Assembly (NCBI RefSeq): GCF_905475395.1
Contig: NC_058337.1
Coordinates: 113,950,368 to 114,014,367, forward strand
Direction: 5' to 3'
Source of the DNA: Chrysoperla carnea
Taxonomy: Eukaryota > Arthropoda > Insecta > Neuroptera > Chrysopidae
Length of the DNA: 64,000 nt
Shown: piece by piece, positions 13,867 through 39,130 of the stretch
Numbering within the stretch: the first letter of the stretch is position 1
Layout of the letters: each line of letters starts with the position of its first letter
Notes under the pieces: generated by a model
Seen by the model: the letters and a program-made list of their open reading frames with translations, nothing else
Database searches by the model: none
What the model was told of the DNA's origin: nothing
Made by a program: the position numbers and the translations under genes

Positions 13867-13906
13867 AAACCTAGGACCTTGTTGATATAAACAAGGTCCT
13901 AGGTTT
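13867..13906. repeat. Perfect 17-bp stem hairpin
   Basis: AAACCTAGGACCTTGTT (13867-13883), 6-nt loop, then AACAAGGTCCTAGGTTT (13890-13906). A perfect, relatively GC-rich stem in AT-rich surroundings. Confidence 0.9.
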
Positions 13907-14381: not shown

Positions 14382-14412
14382 TACTTTATTATATTTATAA
14401 TATAATAAAGTA
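14382..14412. repeat. Perfect 14-bp AT hairpin
   Basis: TACTTTATTATATT, TAT, AATATAATAAAGTA. It sits at the right edge of a repeat-like stretch (14035-14415) that also holds three ACATACCG units at 14257-14281. Confidence 0.8.
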
Positions 14413-15118
14413 AAAAAATAAAAAAAGGAGAGTTAAGATGGGTTTTTGAAACCCATAATCTATTCAGATATCACAAAAATATTTTTCATAATATCCAATA
14501 GTCTATACTGAATACAAAATCCACAACCTCTAGTTATAACAAATATGTATATAGAGGTAGAAATGAATCGACAAAATCACATATTAAAAAATTTCTGTAC
14601 ATATATATTGGTTCTTATATTATTGAATATCATATTATTTTGATCAATATCTTTGATAGATAATTAAATATTAATAATAATAATCATAATCATTATTATT
14701 AATATTAATTATTTATTGGAAATAATATTTATAAAAAAATAATTCCATCCATTTATGATATATGATTAAAAAATCATTTATAAAATTTTTATGGAAAAAT
14801 GTGATTGAAAGAATTTATTATACAGGATATGACGTCATTTAATTTGTGAAAAGAAGAATCCTTAAAAAATTTTCGAAAATTTTGTCGAATGTTGAAAGTT
14901 TGATGAGGAATTATTTGGCATTTTATATGGTCCAGAAATCATGGAATATTGATATACATAAAAAAAAAACTTTCCAATAAATGTAGTTTTACAAAACGAA
15001 TCACACAATTATAAAAAAACTGTTTAATCTAACAATTTAAAACTTTGAGCAACTTCCATGTTCAAAAGAGCTAAAACCAGTATCCAAATGTCCAAGCTCT
15101 GTGAAATATGTGAAATTT

Positions 15119-15468
15119 ACAAAATTTAAGAAACCCCCGGCAAATGTATTGGTACGGAACCCTAAGCTCGCACTTGAAACATAGCTAAGAACACTCTCTT
15201 TTAAATTACGTCTTTCTTGTAGCCTTGTCCAAACTGAACCGATTTTGAAGATCATCGCTTCTTTTTTAGTTGTTTCGGCTACGGAACTGTAATATCGCAC
15301 TTGAAATATGGGTACGAACACTGTCCATTAGATTGCTTTTAAACAAAAAACAAAAAAACAAAACAAAATTGGTCATCCGTTTAGAAGGTACGTTGCCAAA
15401 GATACACAGACAGACGAACTAAGTGGCCAAACTTATAACACATTTTTTTCGGTTCGGGGGTTAACAAA
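15119..15468 (-). repeat. Dispersed repeat C copy
   Basis: Contains GGTACGGAACCCTAAGCTCG, GATTTTGAAGATCATCGCTT and AGTTGTTTCGGCTACGGAAC. Ends GGTTCGGGGGTTA. Same orientation as the copy at 4247. Confidence 0.75.
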
Positions 15469-15632
15469 AATTAATAACTTTTTGTTGTTACTATTTTTAT
15501 AACCATTTTTGACCAAAAATTTTTATTTTTTATAAGTAAATATTTCTTAAATCAACGATATCAATATCTAATTTACGAAAATTGGGCCAAGAAAATATTT
15601 ACTTCCTATCATGTTAAGAACTTATTTCATGC

Positions 15633-16029
15633 TATTCGTTGTGTGCGTAGTCATGGTAGGGGCAATAAAATCGATGCCAGCGCTTCCAGTAAAAAATTTT
15701 GACGATAAAGGAGGCTGTTATGACTAATTTGCAATTCTTTACATGTTAATGTTATAAAAAATGTCAAATTAAAATTATGGAAAAACACTAATTAATAAAA
15801 TTTAATGAATTAAAAATTGTGCAAATAAGAAATCAAATTGCACAAATATTATTTTTCAAATGTAAATTATCATAATTATTTATTTAAATTTGTGAGATAA
15901 TAATATTAAATTTTCAATGTAAGTCATAAATACAATCCATACAATTATATATGCATCCATACAATTCTATAATTAAAGTAGTGTATCGTTACCATGGAAA
16001 CGCCTCCAAACTCACACACGGTGCGAATA
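15633..16029 (+). mobile_element. Dispersed repeat B, with 13-bp flanking direct repeats
   Basis: This 397-bp unit starts TATTCGTTGTGTGCGTAGTC and ends GGTGCGAATA, so its tips are short inverted repeats (TATTCG/CGAATA). The direct repeat TAAGAACTTATTT flanks it at 15615-15627 and 16030-16042, like a target-site duplication, although 5 bp (CATGC) separate the left repeat from the tip. It has no coding capacity. A reverse-complement copy lies at 37264-37652. Confidence 0.75.
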
Positions 16030-16159
16030 TAAGAACTTATTTTTTTTTACTGTGTATATTGAGAGGCATTAAATTTATCACATATTAAAATAAATCATTG
16101 AGTTTCAAGGAAAATTTTATGCAAGCTTTTTTCAATTAGATGCATCGACTTTCGAAGCA

Positions 16160-16179
16160 TCCTGTATATACAGGATGTA
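16160..16179. repeat. Perfect 20-bp palindrome
   Basis: CATCCTGTATATACAGGATG. It resembles two fused CCTGTATA-type repeat ends, a motif also seen near 3152, 35020 and 35885. Confidence 0.8.
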
Positions 16180-16612
16180 CTATAGAAAGATGAAAACAAA
16201 AAAAAATAAACAAATCTTTCATAATTTGACCACCATCAAAATCACACTCTTACAAACTGACAAATCATTAAAATATTTAGCACATGGTTGTCAACAAAAT
16301 ACCCTCATCTCACACACATTGTGTCCACATCTTCATAGCAGCCCCATAACCACAAAACATAGTAGAGTCATCATAAAATATAAACTGGAATTTATTTTAT
16401 TTTACTTATTTTTATTTTTTTTTTTTATACATTTTGTTTAATGTTTAAATGAAAGAAGAACTCAGTCGCCAAGAGTTATCAACACTTGATTATTTTTGAT
16501 GATAATGTTAAAAACTTATTTCATATTATAAATGTATATTTATTAGATACAGTGTGTTTATTATAATGGTCAACTTTCGGACAATATGTGAGCAAGAAGT
16601 GTATTTTCAGGT

Positions 16613-16806
16613 TATTCGCACAGTGCACGAGTTTTATTTCAGAAGTTTCCATTGTAATAACACACTACTTGAAGACTATAATTTTATGGATTAACATATA
16701 AGTCATTGGTTTGTATATATAGTTAACATAACATTAAAATTAACATTAAAAATTTACGTTGCAATTTCATCTCTTATTCTCAGAATTTCCATTGCAACAA
16801 GTTAAA
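16613..16806 (-). repeat. Dispersed repeat B, degraded partial copy
   Basis: Begins TATTCGCACAGTGCACGAGT like the copy at 37264, but diverges and is truncated before a fold-back element at 16808. Confidence 0.6.
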
Positions 16807-16807
16807 T

Positions 16808-17131
16808 AAAAAAAAAACTTTTAACAAAAAGAAAACCGAGTTCAAAAGGAAAACTCCAAAATATATTAAAATGCACTAAAAAGTAAAAAAATAACGATAA
16901 TATTATAATGTAGTTAAAATTATTGTTATTTTTGGAGTCGGTGTCAGCCAAGCTAATGTAGAAAACTGTTCTGTCAGAGTTGTTTCCTTGGCTGACACCG
17001 AATCCAAAAATAACAATAATTTTAACTACATTATATTATCGTTATTTTTTTACTTTTTAGTGCATTTTAATATATTTTGGAAAAGTTTTCCTTTTGAAGT
17101 CGGTTTTCTTTTTGTTAAAAGTTTTTTTTAT
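16808..17131. mobile_element. Long fold-back element, 145-bp arms
   Basis: Left arm 16808-16952, right arm 16987-17131, 34-nt spacer. The arms are near-perfect reverse complements over their full length, for example TTTTTGGAGTCGGTGTCAGC against GCTGACACCGAATCCAAAAA. No protein is encoded. MITE-like or fold-back. Confidence 0.9.
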
Positions 17132-17444
17132 TTTGTGATTTTTAGTGAATCTGAAGTACACTCACTAACTTGTCACTAAAAAAAGAATCATCGAAGTGAT
17201 ATTGAGTTATTCGTCCTCTTGTCGTGCATACTTAATGCAAATTTAAGACTTTTATGGTTTTCTCATGGATACCGTTCTCAGATCTGTACCAAAATGAAAT
17301 GGGACCAAACGGGAAGCACTAGCTTTCAAACAGATAAAGAATCATCAAAATCGGTTCACCCAGTCAAAAGTTCTGAGGTAACAAACATAAAAAAAAATAC
17401 AGTCGAATTGATAACCTCCTCCGTTTTTGTTTGAAGTCGGTTAA
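17132..17444. repeat. Repeat segment following the fold-back, ending GAAGTCGGTTAA
   Basis: Ends with ATAACCTCCTCCGTTTTTGT then TTGAAGTCGGTTAA. The motif TTGAAGTCGGTT also stands at the right end of the adjacent fold-back (17094-17105), so this may be the rest of one composite element. Confidence 0.5.
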
Positions 17445-19953
17445 TTAACTGTTATTATTCAACAGTCTATATTTTACATTTTACTATACCAATTGATATT
17501 TAATACCAATTACATGTAAATAATTGAAAAATAGTCATATTTTAAATAAAACTTTTACTATACAAAAAAGTAGAAAACAAATACTGTATCTCTTTTTCTA
17601 ATATCTGTCTAATTAGCAGTTTAAATACATATTTCTTGACCAATTTTAACATTTATTTCACTTCTTGTCATCTCTATTTTTCCGATTTTTCATATTTTGT
17701 TAAGAAAAGCGAAAAAATAATTATCGATATTTGCTATTAACTGAAACTTTTTTGTCCATAACGATATCTCGATTTCTAATCATATCGATATAAACTAGAA
17801 GCTCATGATTTATAAAACACCTATATATTACATATATGTATATATTTATTAAATATTATCAGTTTTATATATTGAGTGGTATATTATGTATGTGAAGTTT
17901 GAGTCTGTATCAAACAACACACATATATGTATATTTATTTGTCTGTGATGACTGATAAGCGACATTTTATATTTAATGTTTTTATCAATTAGTTGTATCA
18001 ATCATCACGATTTGTTGTCTGAAACTCAAACTTAAAACTTAAAACATATTATAACATAATACACATATCTCTCTGACTTTATAGCTTACTTACTTAGCAG
18101 CTTAACTTTTAATACTTAAGCTACAAATTAATTCATTGAACACACACACACACATCTACATATATGCTTACTTAATGGATTTTTATAAGAACACAAAAAA
18201 ATGAATTTTATTAAAAAAAGAATTTTATTTAGTTAAGTTAGATAAATTTATTTTTTGGTAATAATGGACCAATTTAAGTTAGCTTATAAACTAACAAGTA
18301 AAAATTTGTTTTTAATTCTGTAACGGTTTTTAAAGCTGTCACGTTTAGATTTTAATTAATTATATATTTCTGGTTAAGTTATAAGTCGGTTTGTTGTTTG
18401 TTAGCCGGAATAAATATTTGCAGTTATATATGTTAATCAATTTCCTAAAAAAATACAGGTAATAGATTATTTCCATGTAGATTTAAACGATTTTCATGCA
18501 AATTTTTTCTTTTTGAAGTTTTAATCGAACTGAATTTTAGGAAGGTACGAGAAAAATTTGATCAGTCCTTTCAAGATTATAAGCCTTTTTTCCAGTTTTA
18601 AAGGATCTCATTATGTAAAATATCCGACAAAGATTCCCAAATGTAGTTTGGTTTTTTTATCACCATAACTCACAAACGAACAGAAATAGCGAGTTTTAAC
18701 CGCGTGCCCTACGTCTCAAAAATAACTTTACGTGAAAATAAAACAGTAGATTGCAAATCTGTGGGACAACCACCAAATAATCTTTAAAAATACGAAAAAC
18801 ACAATAAACTTTTAAGGAATTTTTTCAATTTTACAAAATTTAAGTACAAAATTTTGAATTTTTTGCTATGCAATATTCAATTTTGTAATAGAAACGTGTT
18901 AATTTTTCAATCTCTGAGGGAATTAGCTTACGTAACGCAGCTCCTTCCCTATGAATTTTTGTATTATTTAATGTGTTCAAAATGTCCTCAAAAATTATTA
19001 AGCAAAATTCATATTATTATTTTTTTTTTTCATCAAATATGGATTATGACAAATTTTGGACAGTTTGGGAACTGGAGATTTAAGTCGATAGTTCAAACAG
19101 TTTTTTTCAGAACCGTGGGAACCTTTTTGTAAAACCACATTTCGAGAAAAACACGTTGAAATTTTTTTTTTCGACTAAAAAACATGTTGCCAGGAAAACA
19201 CGGTGAAAATTTTTTTTCGACTAAAAAACATGTTTACAAGACGTTGACGACGATAGCTAAAGAATGTTTTTTGGTCAAAGAAAAGCTATTTCACTATTGA
19301 ACTGCCTTAATATTGTGTTAAGGCACATAATTTTGAAAATCCTTGCAGGTATAATTGTCGTTATTTAAGACTCTCTATATATTCAAGAACTGATTAGATC
19401 CATTTGTGTTATCAGTTGATATTAAACATCGTAAAAGTTTTATTTCTTATAAAGTGAGAGATACTTTTTTTTTAATATATAATATATTTATACATATTTA
19501 AGTATCGTTAACAATGATTGTATTTGTAATATTAATATTGGTATTAATCGATCAACATTGTAAACATTGCTTTATATTACACTTTTGTGTATTTGTTTGA
19601 CAATTATTACTGGTTTGACGACCACACCGTCATTTTTTATTACATTTTATACAAGGAAACGAAATTATTTATTATTTATTTATTATTTTTCCGATTTCAA
19701 TTTTGATTCAGAAATGTCAACCATAAAAGTTTAATCAGAATCATTATCATTTATCAAGTGAGAAAATTTGAGCTTAATGATATTTTCTTGAAACTTGAGA
19801 TTTTTATTAAAATTTGCTATATAACAAAAAATTTCCAAAAACGTTCTGTCGTTTTTCCCATATTTAAATATTTTAGCATCTGAAGGATCATCTTATACCT
19901 AAGTTTTCTACATCTATAGCTATTAGAACCGCAAAAACCATAGAGTACAAGAA
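17445..19953. other. AT-rich stretch without recognised gene
   Basis: Only low-complexity TATATA/ACACAC tracts and the small duplication near 19150 are seen. Confidence 0.4.
19146..19236 (+). repeat. Short tandem duplication
   Basis: Two units of about 50 bp share AAAACACG.TGAAA, TTTTTTTCGACTAAAAAACA and TGTT. No coding meaning is seen. Confidence 0.65.
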
Positions 19954-20301
19954 ACGGTATAAGGGCCATCTTTACTCATCTGATAACCAGATGAGACATA
20001 TTTTTTATGAAATTTTATTGACTTTTAAACACTCCCATCATATTTTTTCTATCAAAAAGTGTTCATGACTAATTAATTTAATTAATTTTAATCAATTTTT
20101 TCCAAGAAAGATTATTTAATTAGGAAAATAATGGTTTAAACTAGCCTGAAAAAACCGTTCATGTAAAAAATTGATTAGAATTAATTAAATTAAAAATAGC
20201 CATGAACATTTTTAAACTATAATAGGTTTAAAAATCAGTAAAATTTCATAAAAAATTTGTCTCATCGATTATCAAATGGGTGAAAATCGACCTTATACCG
20301 T
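19954..20301. mobile_element. Fold-back element, about 140-bp arms
   Basis: Left tip ACGGTATAAGG, right tip CCTTATACCGT. The arms share GATGAGACATATTTTTTATG against CATAAAAAATTTGTCTCATC, and an inner AATTAATTTAATTAATTTTA block. Weaker pairing may extend to about 19890 and 20375. Confidence 0.82.
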
Positions 20302-21254
20302 CTCTTAGACCAATAAAAAAACAGGGAAATTAAAAACATTCTTAAAGTAGCTACCATTTTCTGTTTAGGGATTTTTTTGTAATAACCCCCGATTAACAAA
20401 GAAGAATGTTTTAAGTGAAACGTATCTGCGTATCTGGGTGTCTGTGTATGGCATCGTAGCTCTACCTCCATCTATATTTAGTCAACTTCATCTTTTTAAT
20501 ATTTTTCCTTATTTTTATATGAATGTTTTATTAATTTTTTTAAATCATACTTTATGCGTAATTCTTCATCATTAAGGTGTCAGTACAAAAAATTGTGTTT
20601 AAATTTTAGGAAAAAAACTTTTTTTTATAGTTTCTGCTATATCACTAAAGTTATTTTTAAGATATTTGGTATACATGGATTTTACATATCTGGAAGCATA
20701 TTCTGACCACTATTTTTTTAAATTTTTTACCCGTTGTGCTAAAGTACATATGGTTTTTGTACTTACTTCGGAAACAACCGGTATAAAGTAAAAATAGATT
20801 TTCTCAAAGATTCATGCCAAAATATCTCCGTAACACTTATTAGCATAGAATATATTGTCTTTTTTTTTCCTCAAAAACAATAGAACAAAATACATACTTA
20901 CTAATGACATAATTATAATCGAAGTATTAACTATTACCTACATTCTCATAATAAGTGGTTCTATGGAAATTTATTTACAGGAATAATAAAAATGCTATTA
21001 ATTCCTGAATCTAGAAAATGACCACATACAACCATTATCGGAAATGATACCCAACTAAATTGTCCAAATGTTATTTTAATGCATATTTTTTGTGATCTGA
21101 GCAAAAAAGAACAGATATTTTCATTTATTTCTTAGGCGAGATTTCTTAGTTTTTAAGAAAATTCTCAAAATGTAAGAAGTGTTCTTATTTGAAGACAGAA
21201 GTGTTGAACATTTTTTTAAATTTCTATCCATAATCTTTTCTAATTTTTAAGACC

Positions 21255-21510
21255 CCAACTAAAATAAAAAAGAGGTGTTTTAAGTTTGACCGCATGTGTG
21301 TGTGTGTGTGTGTCTGTCTGTGGCATTGTAGCGCCTAAACAGATGAACCGATTTTAATTGTTTTGGTTTCATTTGAACCGATTTTAATTTAACGGAGAGT
21401 GTTCTTAGCTATGTCTCAAGTGAGTGCTTAGGGATCCGTACCTGAAAATAATAATAAATTGGCGATGATCTTCAAAATCGATTCAGTTTGGAAAAGGCAT
21501 TACATATAAT
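21255..21510 (+). repeat. Dispersed repeat C copy
   Basis: Opposite orientation to 4247. Contains a (GT)n tract, GGCATTGTAGCGCCTAAACA, GATGAACCGATTTTAATT, GTGTTCTTAGCTATG and GGCGATGATCTTCAAAATCG. Confidence 0.72.
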
Positions 21511-21754
21511 CTTAACATATAAATAATTACTATGGAAATAAATGGTCAAATAAACCTGGCTCAATTCATTTTGAAAAGTGAAATGGTAAAATAATTAAGT
21601 AATTCAAAACAATAATTCACAAGAACAAATTCAACTCAAATATTTCAATTTCAATTAAAATATTTCCAAAAATTTGTCTCAAAAAATGATAGCTCTCTAA
21701 GGATCCTTTTCATCTCATCTAATGCCCTCAACCATCACTTTGATATTGATTTAA

Positions 21755-21965
21755 GAAGGAGTGTTATAAGCTTAAAGTGTTTATCTGTGCGTCTGTGTGT
21801 TTTTTAGTGGCATCGTAGCCCCTAAACGGTTGAGCCCACTTGATTGAGAACATTTTATAGCTAAGCTTCCAAAAATCGGTTTACAAGGAATAAATCGCAT
21901 TTGTCTCGAGTTTTTTTAATTTTGTAAGTTTCACTTGTCGGCCAATGTCAAGTTATTAAAAACAT
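21755..21965 (+). repeat. Dispersed repeat C, degraded copy
   Basis: Recognised by GGAGTGTTATAAGCTTAAAG, GTGCGTCTGTGTG and GTGGCATCGTAGCCCCTAAA. The remainder has diverged. Confidence 0.6.
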
Positions 21966-22639
21966 CCTGTGCATAACTGAGTAAAACAGTATTTCCTGTG
22001 TTATTTCTAGACCGTTAAGATTTTCAATACCATCTTATTTAATCACTACATACAATAATATTTTTATGATTCCTGTACACATATGTATATTATATTAGGT
22101 ATATTAATTATCCTTGGTAAATATCACGATACAATAATATAATGAACAACTATTTATTTCATATATATGTGTAATGTGTATAGATAGGAAGCCATGATTA
22201 TCTTTTATAACAAATAAAATATATAAACTTATTTTAAAATTAAATGAACAATAATATACAAATCAAGCGAGTATTAGTTGTCTATCTGTCTGTGTGTGTT
22301 TGTTTATTTGTTTGTATTACCTTCTATTTAAATACGACTCCCCACTTCCACACCACCACCGTATATGAGGTATTAGGGATGATAAGAAGGTTCACTTTTT
22401 GTTATATAAGTTGTCCTTTTTTTTTACAAAAAGCGCGTAGGAAAATCGAACTTCCATAAGTTCTCGACCTAGTACAGTCAGTTCTTGAAACTAATTTATA
22501 AAATAAAATAGAAACAAGCTTCGCTTCTTCTTGCCCTTGAATCTTAGTAATAATATCTATTAGTTTGTTTTTCTAAAGAACCGCTAAAAGGTTTGAGTAT
22601 ATGATGTTATAAGTCGTATATGAACGTATGATTTGATAT

Positions 22640-22685
22640 GAACCTGCAGTTTTATCTAGGGTAGTAACCTGCAGTTTTATCTAGA
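22640..22685 (+). repeat. Short direct duplication
   Basis: AACCTGCAGTTTTATCTAG occurs twice, 26 bp apart. Confidence 0.75.
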
Positions 22686-23778
22686 AATTTTGAAAATATA
22701 CTGAATTTGGCAATATAGTGAGAACCACCTCTCCAATATGATTAAGATGGATAAAAAATTACGAAGCACGATTATTAATGCGCATGTCTCAATATAAAAT
22801 ATAATAAACTGACGCGTATTTACAACATAATTATTACCAGTTAATAAAATGTCTACTTAAAAATATTCCTTGCAAAAAAGCAACATCTAACCACTTTTTA
22901 GAACTTTTATACAGAATTAATTAAACAAAAGTAACTATTGAAGCTGACTTCCGTCCGTCAATACGATCATGCGCATTTAATACCATGCTCTCTTATTGTG
23001 TTTCTCTGTCAGCTGTTTGAATAATGTGTTGAAGCTAATTTTGAGTCAAACAACTTTCTCATTTACACTTTTACAAAAACATCATTTTTTCTTAATGAAA
23101 ATCGTGAAAACCCTCTTTTTGATACTTTAACGCCACCTACTTTTTGTAATTTAACTCGTATGACGTTGCTCCAATGACATAAAATGTAGCTGACAATGTC
23201 TTCTACATTTTTTATTTGAAAAACTTTTCCCTTAAACCAATAGATTCCGAGAAAAACGCATTCCAAATTTTTTTTTCCCATTTTTTTGGATTTTCTCAAA
23301 AACAGCGGAACGAAAAATTCTCTTAATTTTTTTTTAAGTTATTTACATGCCCCCCTAACGATCCATAACCTCAGATCCAGTATTGTAATTTTTTCCAGGT
23401 CCGGCCTTTTTTTCGTCTATATTGACTGAATCATTATGAAATTTCAAATTTTGTGTACTAAAAGTTCTAAGTTTTCACTACTATCGGCAGTCCATTTTTT
23501 TCCCACCCTGTGCAGTAAATACATTATATTAGTACATCGTAGCAGTTTAAAACCAATATAAAATACATTGTACAGAATAGATAAAGGTACCTACCAATAC
23601 CTACGTATGTATTGACTATATAGACCCATAATCTCTTCATTATATAAAATATTGTATATAAATGGAGTCGATTAACAGTCATAGATAACAATACACATTC
23701 TATACTCTACTACTATTTATAATGATCATTCAATCTGATAAAGTTTTAGCTAGAGCTAGCTGCTAGCTAACATCAGCC

Positions 23779-23814
23779 TACACACACACACACAAACACA
23801 CACATACACACATT
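23779..23814. repeat. (CA)n microsatellite, interrupted
   Basis: CACACACA units with occasional AA and TA interruptions. Other CA/GT tracts are at 18141-18152, 21297-21312 and 35171-35188. Confidence 0.8.
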
Positions 23815-24214
23815 GATATAAAACTATTTGCTAGTATTATTGTACCCAACAATAATAACACAGAGAATGGGATACACATTTTATTAATGGTATTCACGGA
23901 AGTCACGGAAGTTGACCATGATCATATTATACTAAACACACAGAAAATTATTTAATGTTAGTATTTAGTATCTTTTATATAATATTTATATGTAAGTGGG
24001 GTCGTGTAAATTGAGATTCCCCTGTATAATAATTAACTGGTGTAATTAGTGCGGTATTTTATATTTAAAATGTATGTGTCTATGAAAATTTAATTTTGAA
24101 GACAGGTATGAAAAGTTCACTTTTAAAGTCCAACTTTTTTGAATTAGTCCTAGTTTTTCAATTTTTAATTTATTTAATAATTGATAATATGTATATTTAT
24201 TAAAAATTTATTTG

Positions 24215-24850
24215 ATTCTGATTTCGATAAAACTCTATATAAAAGGTAATTTTGACCCAAAAATCGCTCTTTGAATCCAATTTTGGATTATATCTCAAGA
24301 GCCACGCATTAAATCATTAAACAAAATCGATTTTTGGATTTTTTGGGCCAAGAAGAAATCGAAAAAATCGAGAAAAAAATTTTGTTTCCGATTTCGATAA
24401 AATTCTCTTTATGAGGTAATTTTGACCCAAAAAATAGAAAAATCGGGTTAATGTATTGATTGGATGTATAGTTTTTGAGAAAATCGCTCTTTGTATCCAA
24501 TTTTGGATTATATCTCAAAAGCCACGCATCTAATCATTAAAAAAACCCGATATTTGGATTTTTTGGGTCAAAATTATCTTATATAATGAATTTTATCGAT
24601 ATTGGAATCCAAAAAAAATTCTCGATTTTTTGCAATTTTCTTAAGGGAAATTTGCAATTTTCTTACCTTGGAAAAAATCGGGAAAAAATTTTTGCTTCCG
24701 ATTTCGATAAAACTCTACATATAAGGTAATTTTGACCCAAAAAGTACAAAAATTGGGTGAATGTATCGATTTAAGAAATTTTATCGAAATTGGAAACAAA
24801 AAAATTCTTTATTTTTTGCAATTTTCTAAAGAGGTACGAACAAAAAAGTC
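24215..24850. repeat. Array of AT-rich repeat D units
   Basis: At least three units carry TTCGATAAAACTCTA or variants, then AAGGTAATTTTGACCCAAAA, and CCAATTTTGGATTATATCTC with GCCACGCAT. Some blocks are in the reverse sense (TTTTGGGTCAAAATTATCTT at about 24560), so units alternate in orientation. Confidence 0.75.
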
Positions 24851-26214
24851 GGGTTTATATATTGATGATTATATTGGCTGTTTTCACTTGTTTTCATTAT
24901 TATTTTTGAAGTACTGAATCTTTCAGATATAAATAATCCCAAAACTCATCGTATTATCTATAATTTTCGATCAAAACACATCATAATAAACACTACACAT
25001 GGTCTTAAAAAACAGACAATCTCAAAAATATATCTCTTACAGAATTTAAGGTACGTATATCTCACCCGCCTTAACATACATTAAACAAAATGAACAGAGA
25101 TAAATATAACATATGGGGTAAGATGAAGTACCTTGAATCAAAATTCACATTTATGAGTTCTTAAAATCCATGCATAAAAATATCACAATGGAAATTGTCC
25201 CTGTTTATAGCACTATTATTCCTCAATAATATGGATTTTTCTCAAGAATTTGAAAACAAGTATCGCTAAAAACTTGTGTGATACATGAAGTGTGAGAAAG
25301 CCTAATATACCTAGATTCACCTTTACCAATTGTACTTGAAGACGCTCTCTTCAACCTGCATTCGTTACAGTTGACTCTAAATAAACCGCTTCATGAAAAG
25401 CAACACATTTCTCTTAGAGGCATCCAGCAACCGCTTTACTGGTTTTTTTAATCATTCGCGATGAATGATGCGAGTTCTTTTAGCCGCTTAACTTTCATTA
25501 CTTGTTAATCCATAAACCTAAGAATATAACTGTGAAATTTAGTTCATACATATTACCTTGTATCAATGGTACATGATGTTGTTGAATTCAAGGTACAAAA
25601 TTTTACGTATTTGAAACTTTATCACCTCAATATTAAACGTTAATTTTAATACTGAAATATTATTTCGAAAACAAAACCATAATGACAACCAGCCTTCAGC
25701 CTATTTCCATTCTGATAAAATACCCTCATTTCAATACAAATGCTGTTCACTAAATATCTGACGAGAGACTATAGAATGATTCAGGATACATTGTACTCTG
25801 GGTACTACATCTTACCCTATTTATTACTGTATTACTGTTCTCAATCGTTAAGGTAGTAGTCGTGTAATAATAATCACCTTTTATTCGATGAGAGTATTAT
25901 ACCTCACCTTAAAACAACACAAACACACACAAACACAGGTAGACAGATAGACTTGAGTTGTTATTTTTAAAAACTACCCATCATAATCAAGATTTTAAAG
26001 GTTGTTATTTTGTGAATGGATTAGTGTTATGCTGTGCCTGTGTTTTAAGCATTATCTTATCATAAAATACGATCAATTATTTGAATTTAGAGTGAACAAT
26101 AATAATCATTTATTATTTTTTATAGTCTATGAAATTTATGATTGGTATTACGTAAATACTGGCGGCGTAAAAAAAATTATATTTACTCTTTATTTTACCA
26201 ACACAAAATTTTCT

Positions 26215-26590
26215 TAAGCTTTTGAGATATAATCCAAAATTGGACACGAGGAGCGATTTTCTCAGAAACCATGCATCTAATCGATACATACAATCGATTT
26301 TTGTATTTTTGGGTCAAAATTACCTAATATACAAAGTTTTATACAAAAATCGAAAAATGTTTTTTGCGTTCGATATCGATAAAATTCATTATATAAGATA
26401 ATTTTGACCCAAAAAATCGGGTTTATTTAATGATTAGATGCGTAAATTTTGAGATATAATCCAAAATTGGAAACAAAGAGCGATTTTCTCAGAAACTATG
26501 CATCCAATCGATACATACACCTAATTTTTGTGTTTTTTGGATCAAAATTACCCAATATATAGAATTTAATCAAACTTGGAAACAAAATCT
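26215..26590. repeat. Second array of repeat D units
   Basis: Shares GAGATATAATCCAAAATTGG, AGAGCGATTTTCTCAGAAAC, TTTTGGGTCAAAATTACCTA and GATAATTTTGACCCAAAAAA with the array at 24215. The dominant orientation is reversed. Confidence 0.75.
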
Positions 26591-29500
26591 AGAAAAACTA
26601 CATTTTTGATTATTGGAGAGTCTTTTTATTGATAAATGTTGCACATGCAATGTTATTTCTACCAAAAAACTTGAAATGTAGAACGTTTATTTCGTCGACA
26701 ATATCTATTGTATTTCAAAACACTAAGTAAATATATAAAACAGACCATAAACATTATAAAAGTAAAAAAGAATGAAATATTAAATCAAATTTGTGCAAAC
26801 TTCAATTTTCAAAAAAAAAAAAAAAAAAAAAGATTGAGATGTTATCTTATATGCACAGGAACACAACATTCACTTATTTTAAGAGATTTTTTTAGTTAAA
26901 AAATTAACGAGCTGCTATAAACATGAAATCAATTTTTTTTCGGTTTTTTTAATTTTATAACACACACACAATATAATGCTTAATCAATCAATGATCGATA
27001 ACTTCTACAAGCGAACGAAGGTCAAAAAAATAATTGGACCATTCAATTCAGACAGGTAAAAGATTAAAACAATATTTATATTTATTTTCAAGTTTAAAAA
27101 AATATTTCGAATGACTTTTTTTATTGATATGAAAACAAATTCAATTTTAAAATTTTAAATCCATCGCTATGACTATTTTTTCTTTAGCCATTTGGTAGGA
27201 TGCTCTAAAGGTATCGCCTTCGATGAGTGATATATATACTAACACAAAATTCTAAGATGAAAGTTCATTTGCAAATTTTAGATCCCACTGCTAACGAGAT
27301 GTGACTTCATTAATTATTGTTTGTATTATTGAAAATTTCTCAATTAATATTAGGACTCCTCTAGTATACGAGGAGAAAAGCACCGACTTCGATGGAAATT
27401 TGGGATTAAGCTTAGTTCATCATCTAGATTAAAAGATATGTTGCCCAGTGGTGTTTTTGTCCAGGGGATGTAAAAATATATGTTGAAAATAACTACAGGA
27501 ATCGATAGAAAAATAAATTCTAAGTAAAAGGTGTCATACAAGTATAATTTGTAAAGTCAATACTTGTCAAGTTATTGGCGTATGAAATTCGGAGTATTTA
27601 ACGTCAAATAACTGAAAAATTAACGATTTTTGAAAAAAGTATATCATAAAATTAGAGTACTATAAAAAACCTTGAAAATGACAAAGTTTCAAGTCATTTG
27701 CACGAAAATTAACGGAATTATAATGACAAGAAAGTTTCTCATATCTTTTTTTATGTTTTATTCAGGACAAAAACTGATGAATTTACAACGCGAACTAAAA
27801 TTAATTTTTGTCGCTTTCCAATTTACTTTATTTAGGTAATGAGAACATGCTCAAAAAGTTCTAGCAATTTTAGACATATGGTTTTTTGAAATGTTGCAAT
27901 TTAAAATGCAAAAATAAATTTCGAAAAAAACGATCAGAAATGTCTTTGTCATTAAATAATAGTTACAAAAAAATCATTTTCAACATATATTTTCCACCCC
28001 ATAGAAGAGGTGGTTACCTCGCCCTGGGCAAAAGCATCACTCAGCATCATATTACTTTTATTTTTTGAGGTCTTATCAACTTATCGTCAAATTTTCAAGT
28101 CAATCGGAGTTTTTACTCTATAGTCAAAATAAAATTTACTATTGATAAATGGTAAGTAATCAGGTGGTCTAAATTAGAACTACTGACAAAACAGTTCACT
28201 TCCTGTTGAACAGTACAAATTTTTATCGCCAGTTAGTGGAATTTATCTGATTTGAATTTAAATATTTTTATAGGCCTCAAAAAATGGTAAGCACAAGTAT
28301 TGCGATCTGGTGGTCGAAATTGTAACTATTTAATTAATTAGTACGAACTATTATCAACAGTTCCAACTTCCAGTTATCATTTATAATTAATTAAATTAAA
28401 ATTGACTTATATTTTTAATTGACTTGTAATTTTTTGAATAAATACAGAAAATAATTAAAAGCTAACCGTTTTTTTTTTTCGGGATCCATATATAAGTACC
28501 ATCTAATAATCTTAGATGGTTTACAGTCAAGTATCTTATCATTTAAACATTTTAGCCATTCTAAATTATTGTGTTTAAACCTGCTCACGATTTTTACTCT
28601 TCGACTATATACACATTTTATAGCTCGACCCACACTTGAGTATTTTGTATCAGTAGGATAAAAACAAGAACCATACATCTTGAACTAACTTCTTTATTTT
28701 TTTGATATCATGATCATATCAAAAAAAATAGATCACGTATCAAACGCATGATGATTCGTCATTTATGTGTAAATTCCGTATAAAGTATAAAATTTTTTTT
28801 ATATGTTAGAGTATTACTTTTAATCCACACTGATGTTTACTTTTTTTGGGTGATAAGAACCTTACCATACACATGCATGATATATATGTAATAGATAATG
28901 ACTGCCATAGTTGTAAAGATAAAAATTATAATTTTAGATAAACATCTGTGAATGTTTTTTAAGTAGAATAATTAATTTTTGAAAATTTTTTTATTAATAG
29001 CGACTCATACTAGTTATTCAATCTTTGTAGTAATATTTAAATAACTTTAATGAATTTCTTGTTACTAAGCCAACCATACTTCAGTTATTTTATTCAAATT
29101 TCCGAGTAACAACTATTATTTTTATAGGGAAGTTACTATTTGATAAAATATAGTTTTAATATATAATTTTAAAATTAATTAAAAATGTTTTAACGTAATT
29201 TATTAGCAATGGATCGAAAAAGTTGAACAATAACGTTTATGATAATACGAAATTCAATGTTATAAAGCGTGTGGTACCTAATTTCTGCATGCATTCTCTT
29301 ATTATTCGTCTATTGAAGGACTTTCCCATAAAAATGATGCCTAAAAATTTAGCGAGTTATTATTACACGAGTGGCGCTTGTTATAATTTACTTTATAGGA
29401 AAATATTTGTCATGTTTTTAAGTAATGTTTTATAAATTAGTCTTAAGAAAAAAACAAAATTTAACAGCTAAAAATGAATTTTAGGGAACGTCCATAAGTG

Positions 29501-29684
29501 ATTTTAAGAACCCTGTGCTTTTTAATATGTCTTGCACCTTGCACCATGCACCTACACCAGAAGGTCAACTCTTTCTCCAACCTCCAAATGTAATTTGAAA
29601 AACAGTAAAGAAAAGTAAAGTTAAAGAAAACAACAATTACATTTCATGTTTTTTAAAACTAAAGCTTAAATTCGAAAATTATAT
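26591..29684. other. AT-rich stretch without recognised gene
   Basis: Poly(A) run at about 26812-26830. Two loosely similar segments, AAATGGTAAG..GGTGGTC, lie at about 28147 and 28283. No coding signal. Confidence 0.4.
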
Positions 29685-30276
29685 ACAGGGTGTTTTTTAG
29701 GTGATCCTAAATCACGGACGAAACAGAAACTGTGAATTGGGATGATAACTAAATTTTTTTCACTATACATGTGAGGAATTCTTTCTGTATATCAATTTTA
29801 ATATAACTTTCAAATTTTTTTATGGTATGAAGTCTACTTTTACGTTTTTATGGGTAGTATCAAATTCGATATGACTCTTGTTATCCAATTCCTTGTAAAA
29901 TTGTCAGAAGAAAAGGAGGACGTTTTTACGATCTGACGTACCGTTAACGATTAAGTTTCGGTATAATTATCTTTTTAATTTTTTTAGAAGTTTTCGACAG
30001 ATATTAAGAAAACTTAAGTTGTTATTATATACAAAGCTTTAGAAATAAAGTTTAAAATAATTTATCACTAGGGCAATTTTATGATTTATTTTAATATCTA
30101 CAAAGAAAATACCTTAATTTAATATTTACTTTACCGAAAAAATTATATCATCATAAATTATATTAAACTATATTTCCCAAAAATTTACTTAAACTTAAAT
30201 CTTCCTAATAATAGTCGAGAAATTAAATTTTGTAAGAAAATCATAGTTTCTGTTCACAGTGATTTATGGACACCCG
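29685..30276. mobile_element. Possible DNA-transposon relic with ACAGGGTG-type ends
   Basis: The left end ACAGGGTGTTTTTTAGGTGA leads to TAAATCACGGACGAAACAGA. The right end, in inverse, reads CGGGTGTCCATAAATCACTG then AACAGAAACTATG. Imperfect inverted repeats of about 45 bp, no coding capacity in 592 bp. Confidence 0.5.
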
Positions 30277-31584
30277 AGTATTTTTAGAAAACTCAAAATA
30301 TTTAACAGAAAACTCAAACGAAAATGAAAAATAATTTATATAAAAATATCCTTGAAATGGATTTTAAAAGTATAAAATTTATTACAAAAAAAAATTATAA
30401 AAAACGATTAAATTTCAACTTTTATCATATAAAACATGATATTTTTTAAAACACAATAAACATATAAACACAAAATATGTTTAGCTATATTATAAATACA
30501 GCAGCAGCACAAATATAGTGTATTTTAATTGGTTATCTATGTTTAAACACCCCCTCATATTTAGAATTATTATCAAAATAAAATTACTGAAAAATACTGA
30601 TTACAACAAACAACTAAACTAGAATTAATCAAAAATGTAACAGGAAATAATATTTATTTGTACACACACAAAAATTATTCTAAACAAATTTTTAAATCAT
30701 AAATAATTTGAATAAAAATTTTAAATAAAATTATTAATAATTTCAAACTAATTTTTAAGTATTTCGATACTGTTAAGAAAATTTTTAAATATTATTTATC
30801 TACAGTGTATCGCATTTAAGATGAAGACACTCTCATATTTGCGTTATTTATAGAAATATCGATTTGAAATTTTGCAGAGTTAAAATTAAAAACTAAACTT
30901 TTTTAACTGGTATGCCATGGAAAGTAAAAAGTGGACAAATTGATAATTTAATAGTGTTATGTTTATTGCAAATTATTACAATTAACTTGTAATAATTTTG
31001 AGTATTTAAAGGCCAAAATAATGAAAAAATTAAAAATGCGAATTTTTACAGAGAATTGATAAGAATTTTTCACAAAACCGTGTAAAGGATGATTAATTAA
31101 TAAATAAAATTTTCAATTTATGGTATAATTCTCATTTTCACTCTTTATCAAAAAAGTGCACGCGTTAACCATTCTAAGTGTTATAACTATAACATTATAT
31201 GTGAATCACATGTACTGGTTAGCGTTTTTTCTTGATTGAGTATATGTCGGTTTTTCATTTTTAAACGCAGTTAGTTTTTTTTTTTTAAATTATAAAATAA
31301 TGAGACGGAAAAAGTTCTTAATTTGGTATGATTATAAGGCTTAAAACTTGTGGAATATTGATTAAAGTTTTTTATAAAAAAGTAATGGAAATATTTTATT
31401 ATTAACTAAAAACCAACATTATTATTATTAGTTTTGGCATCGAAAAGCCTTAAATAGACACAACAATCCCCAAAACAAAAGCCTTTGATTTAGTATGGCA
31501 CACATTTTCCACCAATCCAAAAGTAAGAAACTTTTTGTATTGTTCTCATAATTATTGTAAATTCATTAACGTAAATTTAAAGTT

Positions 31585-31765
31585 TTTCTATCGGAGTGAG
31601 AGACAGCGCGATATTTTAGAGAGAGAAAAAATACAGTTTTCTAAATAGTAGTTGCATTAGCGCAGTAAATGTGTCAACGCCACAATGAATAGTCTCATAT
31701 ATGAGATATAAAACAATAATTTTTTTCTTTCTAAGATATCGTATTTTCTCTTACTCCGATAGAAA
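31585..31765. mobile_element. Short MITE, about 37-bp inverted repeats
   Basis: Left end TTTCTATCGGAGTGAGAGAC, right end reading CTCTTACTCCGATAGAAA, continuing inward to CGATATTTTAGA / TCTAAGATATCG. 181 bp, no coding capacity. Confidence 0.78.
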
Positions 31766-32033
31766 TTCCTTAAGATTTTACGTGCGCAGTTTACTTTCAA
31801 CATGACAGAATCTGTTTTTGTGTCGTTTCTAAGCCCCACAGATAGGAACATTATCGAATTTTTGAACTCTTTTATTCACGATACAACAATTTATTAAATG
31901 AATCATAAATAATTCTCTAGAATTTACTCATATATAGATCTTAAAATAATTACTTGGTAATTAAATTATTTCATATATTTAAATGATTAAACTGATATGT
32001 GATTAACAGTTAAGTCCATGGTCTATAATCAAA

Positions 32034-32056
32034 CATATATATATATATATATATAA
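32034..32056. repeat. (AT)n microsatellite
   Basis: About 11 uninterrupted AT units. Confidence 0.85.
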
Positions 32057-33027
32057 AATAAATTTGTTATCTGTTTTCTAAAAATTGATAAATCATTTTT
32101 ATTTTATCTATAAACATTAAACTTATATATACATTTAATTAAATAGGTACTGTTACAGGGAGATATTAAAGTTTGTTATTTTAGTTATCAAAGTTTTAAA
32201 ATTGTCGCGTCTTATTAATTCATATCAGTCTATCAAATCAACATTTAGTATCATCATTTTATATTATTTTATTAATTAATGTCGAAATTCTATTGATATT
32301 GCAATTTAAACTTTTGCGAGGCACAAACGTACAAAAGGGCAAATAGTATCTACCAAAATTCTGTTTATGTCGACGCTCAGCTGAACTTCCTGAATTGATG
32401 AAAATTAATTATTAGGCTATAAAACCCCAAAAATTATATTAATGTCAATCACTCGTTCATAAAAACATGCTCTTATATTCGTGCACTAGCGGAGGATGTA
32501 TTAAAATGATCCCCCTAAGAAAAAATGTAATTTTTAGCCCAGCTATTCGAAATATGTATAACGTCGAAATAATTTTCGTATTTTTATTTAAGTATTACAA
32601 AATTGGCATGACATTTTTATTCTGTCCAAATTTTTGAACTATTCAATATTTCTCAAAAGGGATTGTTTTACCGACCTGGTAAGAATTGGTGGACCCATTG
32701 CGTTTTTTACCAAACAGTTCACATAAAATCTTAATTATTCTTTTGCAAACACCAAAAAACACTGCTAAAAATCATCTAAATCAACAAATTCCAAACCCGC
32801 CACAAGATGGCGGATAATTTTACCTGTTATTAATTTTACACACAAAATTGGGATCATTTCAACTAATATAAAGAGGATCATTTTACCCGTAAAGGCATAT
32901 TTGAATATCGTCATAAAAACTAAACTTAAACTCCTGTCAAAATGTATTTTAATATTATTAAAAGCCAACCGAAGTTAAGAAGAATTATTTTATTTGACGG
33001 GTCATTTTGTAACACTTTCGTCTATTT

Positions 33028-33172
33028 GAGACGGTATACAACACTAAGACATTGTATCCATACATATACTCAATATACACACACAAGTGCAAATTTATAA
33101 GTTGTTTTTTTGCTTATCTATACAACAAATCGGACAAGAACCGTTTTCTGGGTGCCAAAAAATTCGTCAGTA
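33028..33172 (+). repeat. Direct duplicate segment, left copy
   Basis: Shares ACATATACTCAATA, CACACACAA, GCAAATTTATA, CAACAAATCGGA and CAAAAAATTC, in the same order, with 33868-33995. A related phrase (AAAAACATGCTC.TATATTC) stands at both 32462 and 33832, so the duplicated unit may be larger. Confidence 0.6.
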
Positions 33173-33867
33173 TTTTCTTTTATTTGTAACGTCATTAACT
33201 GTACTATTATTGATAGTCCAGGAGTGAATGATTACTTTTCAATCAAGAATTCACAATAAAGTTACTTTATTTCAACAAATGCAATAACTTTTAAAGTTAA
33301 AACTAAGCAATCGACCAAACCATACAATATATGTATATGCACATGTTTTTGAAGAATGAGTACATCTTATCTTTGTCGAGTCAACTCAGACACACATAAA
33401 ACTCTGCCTATATTTACAATTCTAAGTGTATCTACTATCTATGTATGTATGTGTAAGATCTGTTATCAGAGTTGATGTGCCGGCATACAAAAAAATTATA
33501 ATGCGAAAAAATTATTTTAATATTTATTTTAACAAAACAACAAACACATACACAAAATGTTATTCCCGCGTGATTTTAACACTTTGATTACAATCAAAAG
33601 AGTGGAATTCACAGGTAAAATGTAAATCGTTGAAATTTGTAAATATAAAAATTAAATTTTGTACAGAACCTTGATGTGGACTTCGCTTTCATTTATTCAT
33701 TATTGTCTATTTTAAAAAAATTTTTTGAATCACTCCTTATGTTTTTCTAATAACATTTATTTATAAAAATGCCAATCTTTCTTAATATACTGTAGCTAAG
33801 GTAGTTCATTCATTATAGTTAAGTCCTTAAAAACATGCTCCTATATTCATGCGCTATTTGTGACAAT

Positions 33868-33995
33868 AGTGTACAATACTAAGACATACTATCTATACAT
33901 ATACTCAATACACACACAACAGCAAATTTATAAAAAAAATTTTTCTTTTCAACAAATCGGATAAGAATCGGTCGTTTTCTAGGCTCCAAAAAATT
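33868..33995 (+). repeat. Direct duplicate segment, right copy
   Basis: Same order of shared blocks as 33028-33172, about 840 bp downstream, with small gaps. Confidence 0.6.
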
Positions 33996-34474
33996 CTCAA
34001 ACCACCAAATTGTATTTATAGAATAAAATTATTAAATAAATGATTAAATTAATCGAATAACTATTTAATTATTTTGTCTTTTTTTTTTATATTCACAGTA
34101 AACAAGGTTTTATTAGTATTTACTTATTTGAATAAATATATCAGATTTATTCGGACAATTTCCAGACTTTTTCAAATGTTGAGTTGGTATCTCTATCATC
34201 GGCGAATGTGACAACATATTTAATAGTGATTCGTACTTTATTTTGGAATCTTATATTTGTCAAATATTTTCGTAGATATGGAAAATAGCCACTCAAATTT
34301 TCACCCATTCTGAAATGACGAAGACTACGCCTTGTGATTCACGTTAATAATTAAGAATTAATTATTAATTATAAAGTAAATATTCCTACCAATCTAAAAA
34401 AAAAAAATTCTTCTCGGCTTTTTAGATCATTAATACAAAGCTTGTATTATAAAAATTCTCTAACCCTCGAACAC

Positions 34475-34880
34475 AAAAAGGGTTTTATAAGTTTGACCGC
34501 GAGGTGTACCTGATTTTGATTTTTTTTGTTTAACTTCAAATTTAATTTAATGAAGAGTGGTAAATTAGGGTTCCGTACCCGAAACAACTAAAAAAGAAGC
34601 AATGATCTTCAAAATAGGTTCGATTTGGAGATGACTATTGGATAAAAAGGTTCGCCTAACGAATCTAGGTATCTTGTTTCAAGGGCCAGTTTATGGTTCC
34701 GTACCCAATTATAACTAGAAAAGAGATTATATTCAAAACGGCTGAGCTGACTCTCTTGAACTATAGCTAAGAACAGTCTCGATCAAATTACCTTTAAAAA
34801 TAAAAAATAAAAATCGGTTCAAGAGCTACCATACCACAAAGGAATCTATCAGACTTGACTTTATGTCGGGGAGTTTCTTC
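34475..34880 (+). repeat. Dispersed repeat C copy
   Basis: Contains GTTTTATAAGTTTGACCGCG, TTAGGGTTCCGTACCCGAAA, CAACTAAAAAAGAAGCAATG and a second GGTTCCGTACCC block at 34695, as if the unit were internally duplicated. Confidence 0.7.
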
Positions 34881-34916
34881 AGATTTTTTATTTATGTGTT
34901 ATTAATAATTAAGATT

Positions 34917-34986
34917 CTAAAAATGATCAGGGAATCGGCGGTATTAGGGCATATCCTAATACCATTAATTCCCTGATAATTTTTAG
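34917..34986. repeat. Hairpin of 70 bp
   Basis: The left side holds CTAAAAATGATCAGGGAAT and GGTATTAGGG. The right side holds CCTAATACC and ATTCCCTGATAATTTTTAG. Stem with one small internal loop. Confidence 0.8.
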
Positions 34987-37263
34987 ATTTTCTTCACGTC
35001 TGCCGTGCATGTTATACCCTGTATAATACAGATATTAAATAATGAACCACCCTATAGATAGACAGATAGACAAAAAAATTGAAACAACTTACAAATAAAA
35101 AACAAATGTAATTGTGACCATTATAAATTTTTTTCTGTTCTGGTGTTCTCTGTGTACGGATATTTCTTTCTGTGTGTGTGTGTGTGTATGTTTGTGTGAG
35201 TATTCGTTGAGTCAGTTGATCAAGATAAAGTGTGTAGGTAAATTGAACATAATATTTTTAGTGGTCTCATGAAAAGATAAGGAAACGAAGCCTGTTTTTT
35301 ATCTATGTTTTTCATATATATATATACATATAATATAATACGTATATATAGAATATTATAGCAGGAGGCAGCCTGATATGAACCAAGGTAAGGTTAGGTT
35401 AAAGATACTTCGTTTTATATGTACGTAGGGTAAAGTTTTGTACCTTTAATAGATTGTTTGAATATAACCCCACTTTTCTGTATAGTTGGATAAAATTTAA
35501 ATATACATAGTATTACTCTAAGCATAATATAACAAACAAGAGAAGGGAAAAAAGACTAAATTTACATCGTCATGTACCTTGAATCAAATAACGTCCTGTA
35601 CCAGTTAATGCTACAACTATTTTGCCTTTGTTATTAATAGTTGCGGCTGTTATTGGAGGCACGAAAATAATTCTAATTTTTATTTTTCAACGTGCCAGTT
35701 TTAACTTTTCCTACTACAAAATAATTCTCTTGCCAAATTCAATTATAATTTCCCTTCGTTATAAAAGTAATTCCCTTAACTTTTCAGTTAAGTTCATTTA
35801 AAAACATTAAAATATGGTGATCATCAAATATAATTTTCTAAAATATTAGAATTCAATTTTCGTTCCATACCCAGAATATTTTAACACCCTGTACCTATCT
35901 ATAACAAAAAATGATAATATTGAAACTGAATGAATTATTGTTTTGTATGAAAATAGAAGTATTTTAAAGTATAAATCTTTGAGAGTAAAATTATTATGGA
36001 GTAGAAAAAAATTAAAGCATGTTTTTTTAAGTAGTATTATTAAAGAGTATACTTAAAGGTATAATTCTTAAAATGAAGAAATATTTTGGAATAGACATTT
36101 TTTTTAAGTATACGGTAAGAAATACATGGCGTTTACTACAATGTTGGCATGGTAAAGAGACAAATACGATAGCTTCTATGTTAGAATAAGTAATATTACA
36201 AAATTGAATCGGGCTATCGACCAGAAGTACTGTGCATATCGCCCACCAGTAAGGATCTGACGCCCATACTGCATTGACTCGTCCACCATAACTATTGCTA
36301 ATGTTACTTTTCCCTCAATGGTCAAAACTGTATGACGTTCACACGAATACTGACAAAGTGATATCCATAAAAATTTCTTACCGTGTAGGAAAATTGTGCA
36401 GTAGAAAGAATTCTTTTTATACCACTTTAAAAAGCATATAAACGGTGATCTAAGGTACAACAGTCTCCCATATATATGAAGTAAATGTTTTAGATTACAC
36501 CCGTACCGTCGCCATCATTATCAGGGTTTGAAATGAGGATTTTTTTTTGTATGTGATAAGAAACAAAATATGATTTTTCATTGTAGATTATTTGTATTGA
36601 TATTTACAAAACTTTTAGACTTAACAGGGGTGCATTAATTTTTTAACATTTTTTTAATATGCCATTCACAAAAATTGTGGTTTTTTTCGATTCATATTCC
36701 TAATCATTACTAAAAAAGATTGACTATAAGCAAGGTGATCTCTCTCCTATTCCCCGTAGGTGACACTAAGAACCTTCTTAAGGAATGGGAGGCGTGGCCA
36801 CATAATAAACCACACCCCCTTATGCAATTATAAAAATTTGTGCAATTTATAATTTAAATTAATTAAGAAATAATTACATCGGGTCAAAAAACTGCGAAAA
36901 AATTTTCTCTTTAAAGTTTTGCTCATCGGACCATTGCAATGTCCGAATGTAGCCATTAAACTGCAGAATGTCGTTTAAAAAATTCTATAAAATTGTAAAA
37001 CTTTCTAATATTCAATCAATTTCAGAAAAAAAATACAAGATTAACATACAATGCAAGGTAATGAAATTCTCGAACTTTTATATTTCATGAAGACTTTTGT
37101 TTTTTGTCTATTTCTATACAAAGATCAGAAAATTCCTTACATCTACAAGTGAAAAATTAAAGGGTAATCTATAATTTTAAATATACCGCATTTTTTCAAT
37201 CGACGTTGTCAAATTTTTACGTTTTAAAAAACTTAAATGTAATTCTTAATAATTTTCACAAAA
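34987..37263. other. Mostly featureless stretch with one unexplained open frame
   Basis: A minus-strand frame at 36460-36176 (94 codons, GC-richer between 36190 and 36370) is open. It reads, in part, LTIEGKVTLAIVMVDESMQY, and I do not recognise it. A GGTAAGGTTAGGTTA run is at 35388. Confidence 0.35.
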
Positions 37264-37652
37264 ATATTCGCACCGTGCATGAGTTTTATTGAAGGTGTTT
37301 CCATGGTAACGATACACTACTTTAATTATAGAATTGTATGGATTGCATTTATGACTTGTATTGAAAATTTAATATTATTGTCTCACAAATTTAAATAAAT
37401 AATTATGATAATTTACATTTGAAAAATAATATTTGTACAATTTGATCTCTTATTTTCACAATTTTCAATGCATTAGGTTTAATTAATTAGTGTTTTTTAA
37501 AAATTTTAATTTGACATTTTCTATAACATTAACATGTAAAGAATTGCAAATTAGTCATAACAGCCTCCTTTATCGCCAAAATCTGGCGATTTTCACTGGA
37601 AGCGCTAGCATCGATTTTATTGTCCCTACCATGACTACGCACACAACGAATA
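37264..37652 (-). mobile_element. Dispersed repeat B, inverted copy
   Basis: Reverse complement of 15633-16029 over its full length. It shares TTTCCATGGTAACGATACAC, GAATTGTATGGATTGCATTT and the terminal CATGACTACGCACACAACGA. No clear target-site duplication is visible here. Confidence 0.8.
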
Positions 37653-38480
37653 ACTTTTTTTTAAATGTGTTACAAAATCTATTTTCTGTAATTGTTTTTA
37701 AAATATCTTCTTATTAGAATGATAATAAAATGGTAATTAATCAATGCGCAATGTGAAACAGAAAAAATTATCGTGGCCCCCCGAATGAAAACGCAACATT
37801 TTCAAAAAGTTTCAAGCGCGCATACACAGCCAAAACTTTTTTGATTATCCTCGGTTCCACAGAAATCAGATATTTTTAATTTCACAGCAAAAATTAGTTT
37901 TCTATAAAGTTACACACTGACTCATCTAAAAATAATTTCTTAATCTTTAAACATCTTTTTAAAGGATGTAGTCTCCACTTTCTTAAAAGGTTTTATTTTT
38001 TTGGTGTCTGTTTATATTTAATATTTCAAGAGATAAAATGACTAATTGTTGTCTACAATTTTATAATCCATTAAGTGATTTTTTTTATAGATTTAAAAAT
38101 AAATCAAAACATTTCTTATCAAAAAAAAGCAAATTTCGCGGTCTACGAAACTTCGTACAAAGGTATTTTATTGTCATTACTTTTCTAAGAATTCAATAGA
38201 AATTTTAATTGGGAAAAACCAATTTATAATATTTATTAATCACAAACAGATAATTAGTGGAATATTCCTTAATTAAAATCTAAAAATAGGATCCTTTTAA
38301 GTCCTATAATTAAAACACTTTCTTTGTAAAAGAACAAAAAGTTTTGAAAACCACGAATAAAAACAAAATAAAAGCTTAAAACAATTGAAAATGTATTAAG
38401 CGCGTCACATAAAAAAGTTTTGGCGCGCTTTTAACTCATCGCCAACAATATATGACAGCAAAAATAACACATCTACTTAC

Positions 38481-38520
38481 GTTTTAATGGTTTAGGATTA
38501 CTTTGTTTACGCCTAGACAT
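38481..38520 (-). CDS. ush: First coding exon of a FOG/U-shaped family zinc-finger cofactor (partial gene)
   Basis: Read on the minus strand from ATG at 38520, the exon encodes MSRRKQSNPKPLK plus the first base (C) of codon 14, then a consensus donor (C|GTAAGTAG). The N-terminal MSRRKQ motif is the known NuRD/RBBP4-binding peptide of FOG (ZFPM), SALL and BCL11 proteins. The Asn at position 8 and the probable closing Lys-Arg match vertebrate FOG1 (MSRRKQSNP..IKR) better than SALL (MSRRKQAKP) or BCL11 (MSRRKQGKP). FOG proteins bind the N-terminal finger of GATA factors and recruit the NuRD co-repressor in the nucleus; the fly member is u-shaped, partner of pannier. No C2H2 exon is visible at lower coordinates, so the other exons must lie left of the window. 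The bases before the ATG (AGAAAATGT) are a plausible start context. The motif and splice site are seen directly; the choice of FOG over SALL or BCL11 is inference. Confidence 0.72.
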
Positions 38521-39130
38521 TTTCTAGATGAAAAATTAATCGATGTCTGTTGAAATTCTTTCAGATGACGTAGATGATAAATAGTTCCACAAAAAAATTC
38601 CGTTGTGTATAATTATTATAAAACCAAACGTAACAAAACATAAAGAAAAACAGAAAAATACAAAAAAAACTTGAGAAAACTTATATTAAATCACGCAACC
38701 AATGTTTTAAAACAGTTTTAACAATAATTTTCCACATTTTCAAAACGTTAAAACAAAAACAAAAAGAAAACTAAACACAATCACAAAAAAAAAAATAAAC
38801 AAAATGAAAAATATTCGAGATTCGAAACCACGAAAAATCACACTTTCAAAAAAACTTATTGGTTTTTTTTTAATTCACGAAATGCATGCAACAATAATAA
38901 CTGAATAAAATAATAAGAATATTTTGAGATGCATTCCCTCTTTTCAACAACAGTTATGCAAAAAAAAAACTTTTCCAGAAAAATTCGAGAGTTTAGATTT
39001 TGGAAACAAAACTTCACTTATATAAATGATTCAATGTAATATATGTTCGCTTCTCTATGGTCTATAGTGAACTGTCAGCTTGTCAGTATGGCAACGTGTT
39101 TGCCGTTCTCACTTGGCCATAAGGAGGTTG
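38521..39130 (-). promoter_or_regulatory. Probable 5' UTR/promoter region of the FOG-like gene
   Basis: This region lies immediately upstream of the inferred FOG start codon on the minus strand. It is very A-rich near the exon and locally more GC-rich around 39045-39130 (for example AACGTGTTTGCCGTTCTCAC), which could mark the transcription start region. No TATA box or initiator is called with confidence. Confidence 0.3.

Follow-up and report, generated by a model that had tools for sequence, protein, structure and literature searches.

The window, the whole 64-kb stretch of DNA analyzed here (C1:113950368-114014367), holds a putative small coding exon on the minus strand, whose gene would run right to left, and a series of recognizable genes to the right of it. 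The features used below are as follows.

1..38474, minus strand: part inside the window of the putative first intron, with no accepted C2H2 or C2HC finger
4041-4079, minus strand: weak coding-like segment of 13 codons, score 11.4 in the codon-bias scan
38475..38480, minus strand: splice donor GTAAGT, with AAAAC ending the exon and GTAAGT opening the intron, phase 1 (sequence read directly)
38481..38520, minus strand: coding portion of what would be the first coding exon, reading MSRRKQSNPKPLK and ending with the opening base of codon 14
38524..38526, minus strand: in-frame TAG, two codons 5' of the ATG (sequence read directly)
47382-47549 and 46956-47168, minus strand: exons of an NF-Y-type histone-fold gene (Pfam CBFD_NFYB_HMF)
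49133-49483, plus strand: Isy1
53809-54402, minus strand: transportin-3/importin-13 gene (Pfam match, at these positions only)
about 59.6-61.4 kb, plus strand: many-fingered C2H2 gene
62.6 kb: cuticle-protein gene (Pfam Chitin_bind_4), which marks the genome as that of an insect

The histone-fold gene at 46956-47549, which we take to be NF-YB, lies to the right of the motif exon on the same strand and is separate from it. It is unlikely that the small exon is part of this gene: the histone-fold exons are followed by a segment at ~46.13-46.30 kb, presumably the NF-YB C terminus, that would end the gene ~7.6 kb before the exon. Coding-like minus-strand segments between ~51 and 58 kb appear to belong to the transportin-3/importin-13 gene; the segment at 56144-56479 had no Pfam match when tested. 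Amid these segments is an RNase H domain (52060-52239, minus strand; PF00075, E 8.6e-6), probably a retroelement insertion, and it falls in the stretch where the window's G+C content reaches its highest peak (51526-52351).

Several repeats are also present. One dispersed repeat occurs at 40838-41422 and 54480-55017 (91-96% alike), with a weaker third copy at 7122-7398 (68-71%), and a dispersed element is found as inverted copies ~21 kb apart at 15633-15951 and 37327-37652 (93-95% complementary). Direct and inverted repeat copies with arms of ~60-180 nt, 65-90% alike, are clustered at 24203-26588, and a tandem repeat of 57-nt units (63808-63932; 2.2 copies, 95% matches) overlaps a coding-like minus-strand segment at 63727-63894. 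Searches with Rfam and for tRNAs each returned 0 matches.

Translation of window positions 38520-38481 on the minus strand gives MSRRKQSNPKPLK, 13 whole codons, after which a C at 38481 begins a split codon 14. If the frame is left unspliced, only two extra codons (R and K) follow before a stop. Because of the in-frame TAG at 38526-38524, the frame starts at this ATG, barring an upstream exon joined to it by splicing, and with one stop two codons 5' of the ATG and another two codons past the donor, the motif and the open frame are nearly coextensive. The peptide opens with MSRRKQ, a type of motif common to FOG, SALL, BCL11, and ZNF423/Oaz proteins, and continues with S-N-P at residues 7 to 9 (SNPK at 7 to 10) and KPLK at residues 10 to 13. 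All six frames of the 64 kb together contain a single MSRRKQ, where a codon-frequency model that treats codons as independent predicts 0.0007 occurrences; under the same independence assumption the expectation for MSRRKQSNP in these frames is 8e-8. On its minus strand, the window holds 19 copies of the hexamer GTAAGT, about one per 3400 bases, and one of them falls precisely where the peptide ends. In a search of the organism's own genome for exact matches, covering 559,487,470 bases in 337 contigs, the 46-base exon-plus-donor string was single copy, in this window. A PDB search with the exon peptide joined to an invented tail found no match.

The initial annotation had described a 40-nt minus-strand exon consisting of essentially just a NuRD-recruiting peptide, followed by a perfect donor. 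Both parts of this description held up, given the peptide at 38520-38481, an MSRRKQ frequency beyond chance, and a consensus GTAAGT at 38480-38475 directly behind the exon. Placement of a NuRD-recruiting, MSRRKQ-type motif on a separate small exon is thus a well-supported prediction from the DNA letters.

The 5' boundary of the exon can be drawn in more than one way. An acceptor-like stretch, TTTTTCATCTAG, directly precedes AAAATG at the start, its AG (38525-38524) lying within the in-frame TAG, and the exon could be internal, with a length of 43 nt (38481-38523), behind a 5' untranslated exon. In flies, Ush-B and Ush-E are two mRNAs encoding one protein, according to the available portion of PMC7891773, so the presence of several leaders would be no surprise. 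A G+C-richer stretch (0.39) at 39051-39201 begins ~530 bases upstream of the ATG and is a possible promoter candidate, picked out by composition alone; this same stretch is overlapped by a coding-like segment on the minus strand (39108-39221), a weak one with a score of 12.7.

The FOG repression motif reads MSRRKQSNP, with S-N-P after MSRRKQ, and the exon carries MSRRKQSNP at its ATG. A literature text search for MSRRKQSNP as letters returned no match. In Drosophila, the 14 N-terminal residues specific to Ush-B begin with nine that are identical to the FOG motif, and this isoform binds dNuRD (PMC7891773, available portion). The S-N-P at residues 7 to 9, together with the agreement between 13 codons plus a split 14th and the 14 Ush-B-specific residues, favors u-shaped, and the exon is likely to be the first coding exon of this insect FOG-family gene, carrying the FOG repression motif. 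The product would be a regulator of blood and body patterning, with a handle for a gene-silencing complex probably supplied by this exon. The FOG/U-shaped identity proposed in the initial annotation therefore remains the best fit by these two features, but no C2H2 finger was accepted on the gene's strand in the 238,480 bases downstream.

Because the gene would run right to left, finger exons were expected left of 38480, and the stretch read there comprised 38,480 window bases and a further 200,000 (238,480 in all). A C2H2 regular expression applied across the window had three minus-strand matches, all judged to be chance. A broader finger expression, able to recognize fingers 1 and 9 of Drosophila Ush, was run over the adjoining 200 kb on the left together with the window's first 40 kb. 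It produced 16 matches, 10 of them on the gene's strand, and none of these 10 was accepted by eye. The nearest approach to a finger layout (C1:113917521-113917598, minus strand) was rejected, having six rather than five residues from the aromatic residue to the leucine and being absent from the coding-like segments. With tblastn, the best match on the gene's strand left of 38480, among matches listed, had an E value of 1.3 for Ush finger 1 and of 0.25 for finger 9 (listed to E ~4.7), the latter running through a stop codon. Overall, the best matches among those listed fell in the zinc-finger gene on the plus strand (59.6-61.4 kb; E 0.019 and 0.096), and all others had E values of at least 0.25.

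A codon-bias scan over the same 200 kb and the window's first 40 kb found nine segments at threshold, which together span scores of 14.5-20.5; seven of the nine are on the gene's strand. Five of these seven, all except those at -193276 and -106224, were viewed, and none was accepted; two were low-complexity sequence. A short acidic stretch ~104 kb downstream (window-relative position -65451, score 14.8) has a good acceptor, lacks a consensus-like donor before its stop, and was rejected. A 30-codon segment on the gene's strand ~170 kb downstream (score 17.0) was neither confirmed nor placed in a gene. A codon-bias scan of the window itself gave four weak segments left of 38480, one of them (4041-4079) on the minus strand, with scores of 11.4-11.8, compared with 15-253 for most segments of the named genes to the right of the exon. 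A scan for phase-compatible second exons returned 22 weak candidates on the gene's strand versus 18 on the opposite strand, with top scores only slightly higher on the gene's strand (2.2, 2.1, 1.1, and 1.1 versus 0.7 and 0.3). The lack of an accepted finger in 238 kb downstream leaves two options, a very long intron or an incorrect u-shaped assignment. If the assignment is correct, the exon is probably separated from the first finger exon by more than 238 kb.

The residues after MSRRKQ bear on the other gene families that share the motif. Residues 7 and 8 are A-K in ZNF423/521 and S-N in FOG proteins, and the FOG-like S-N of the exon speaks against a first exon of Oaz (ZNF423-type), which would recruit NuRD to Oaz targets instead. 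Oaz is the main rival since the motif is reported in fly Oaz, the second Drosophila protein named with it in the available portion of PMC7891773, and the gene downstream of the exon offers no identity of its own, no finger having been accepted. An Oaz exon seems unlikely. Fly Oaz has 21 fingers (PMC2889900, available portion); no finger of any type was accepted nearby in the 238,480 bases downstream on the gene's strand. As for BCL11, these proteins read GKPQ after MSRRKQ, as opposed to SNPK at residues 7 to 10 of the exon. If the exon opened a SALL (spalt) or BCL11 (CG9650) gene, this would account for the N-terminal MSRRKQ, which is found in BCL11B and in SALL2 E1 (MSRRKQRKPQ; PMC7937961, available portion), yet SALL2, the one vertebrate SALL sequence compared, has RKPQ where the exon has SNPK, and no finger of any type was accepted in the 238 kb downstream. 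We regard either of these genes as very improbable.

The exon might also be a stranded or nonfunctional copy that now lies outside any gene. The lack of a single accepted finger exon within 238 kb is what such a copy would predict, but its start, motif, and consensus donor are all intact, and the genome holds one copy by exact matching, leaving this explanation with only a slim chance of being right. A first coding exon of u-shaped remains the preferred reading.

If this reading is correct, a transcript beginning upstream of 38520 would be spliced at 38481/38480 to the common u-shaped exons, placing the FOG motif at the extreme N terminus of Ush as a NuRD-binding handle. GATA-factor/Ush complexes could then recruit NuRD and repress their targets, while transcripts begun at a different first exon would be without it, as happens in Drosophila. 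For this species, transcription and splicing of the exon and the use of alternative first exons are all predicted. The suggestion in the initial annotation that alternative first exons give isoforms with and without co-repressor recruitment describes what has been demonstrated for Drosophila Ush (PMC7891773, available portion), but no alternative first exon was identified here. Nor is the isoform idea new, being in print for Drosophila Ush (PMC7891773) and for SALL proteins (PMC8699250 and PMC7937961), as far as the available portions of these papers go.

With the isoform principle already demonstrated in Drosophila, the value of the exon lies mainly in correct annotation and in a data point on motif-exon distance. 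If the assignment is right, a separately encoded FOG NuRD handle has been retained in another insect, and an annotation lacking the 40-nt exon would yield an Ush protein wrongly devoid of its co-repressor motif. Only the implied separation between the motif exon and the fingers is out of the ordinary, and it depends on the putative u-shaped assignment. One speculative and rather doubtful consequence is that intron length acts as a timer for co-repressor recruitment: with its own promoter more than 238 kb from the fingers, the u-shaped NuRD exon would need hours of transcription to give the NuRD-binding isoform, restricting it to cells that divide slowly, whereas transcripts begun closer to the fingers would soon deliver the isoform that does not bind NuRD.

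The closest known system is Drosophila Ush, where, in the available portion of PMC7891773, alternative promoters and splicing produce some isoforms that carry the NuRD motif and others that lack it. The N termini of Ush-A and Ush-D are different and do not contain the FOG motif, and only the Ush-B isoform coprecipitated with dMi-2 (PMC7891773). The motif is identical in the Ush-B and FOG1 peptides, which compete for binding to dNuRD; the authors' conclusion is that this motif is critical (PMC7891773). In contrast to the exon described here, for which 238 kb of downstream sequence held no accepted finger exon, the fly isoform shares a 1175-residue, nine-finger region (PMC7891773). The exon resembles Ush-B in having the FOG motif at the extreme N terminus, with ~14 residues on an exon of their own and NuRD use that is reported in the fly and predicted here. 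The vertebrate proteins FOG1 and FOG2 (ZFPM1/2) likewise have a NuRD-type motif at the N terminus. They differ at residues 10 to 13, which are RQIK in FOG1/2 and KPLK here. The N-terminal NuRD-binding motif of FOG1 spans 12 residues (PMC7761934, available portion). SALL1 and SALL2 show the same isoform theme in another protein family, with different residues after MSRRKQ. The NuRD motif of SALL1 is encoded by exon 1. Some SALL isoforms lack the motif, SALL1 isoform 2 having lost exon 1 (PMC8699250), and among SALL2 isoforms it is E1 that is noted for carrying it, as MSRRKQRKPQ (PMC7937961), in the available portions of both papers.
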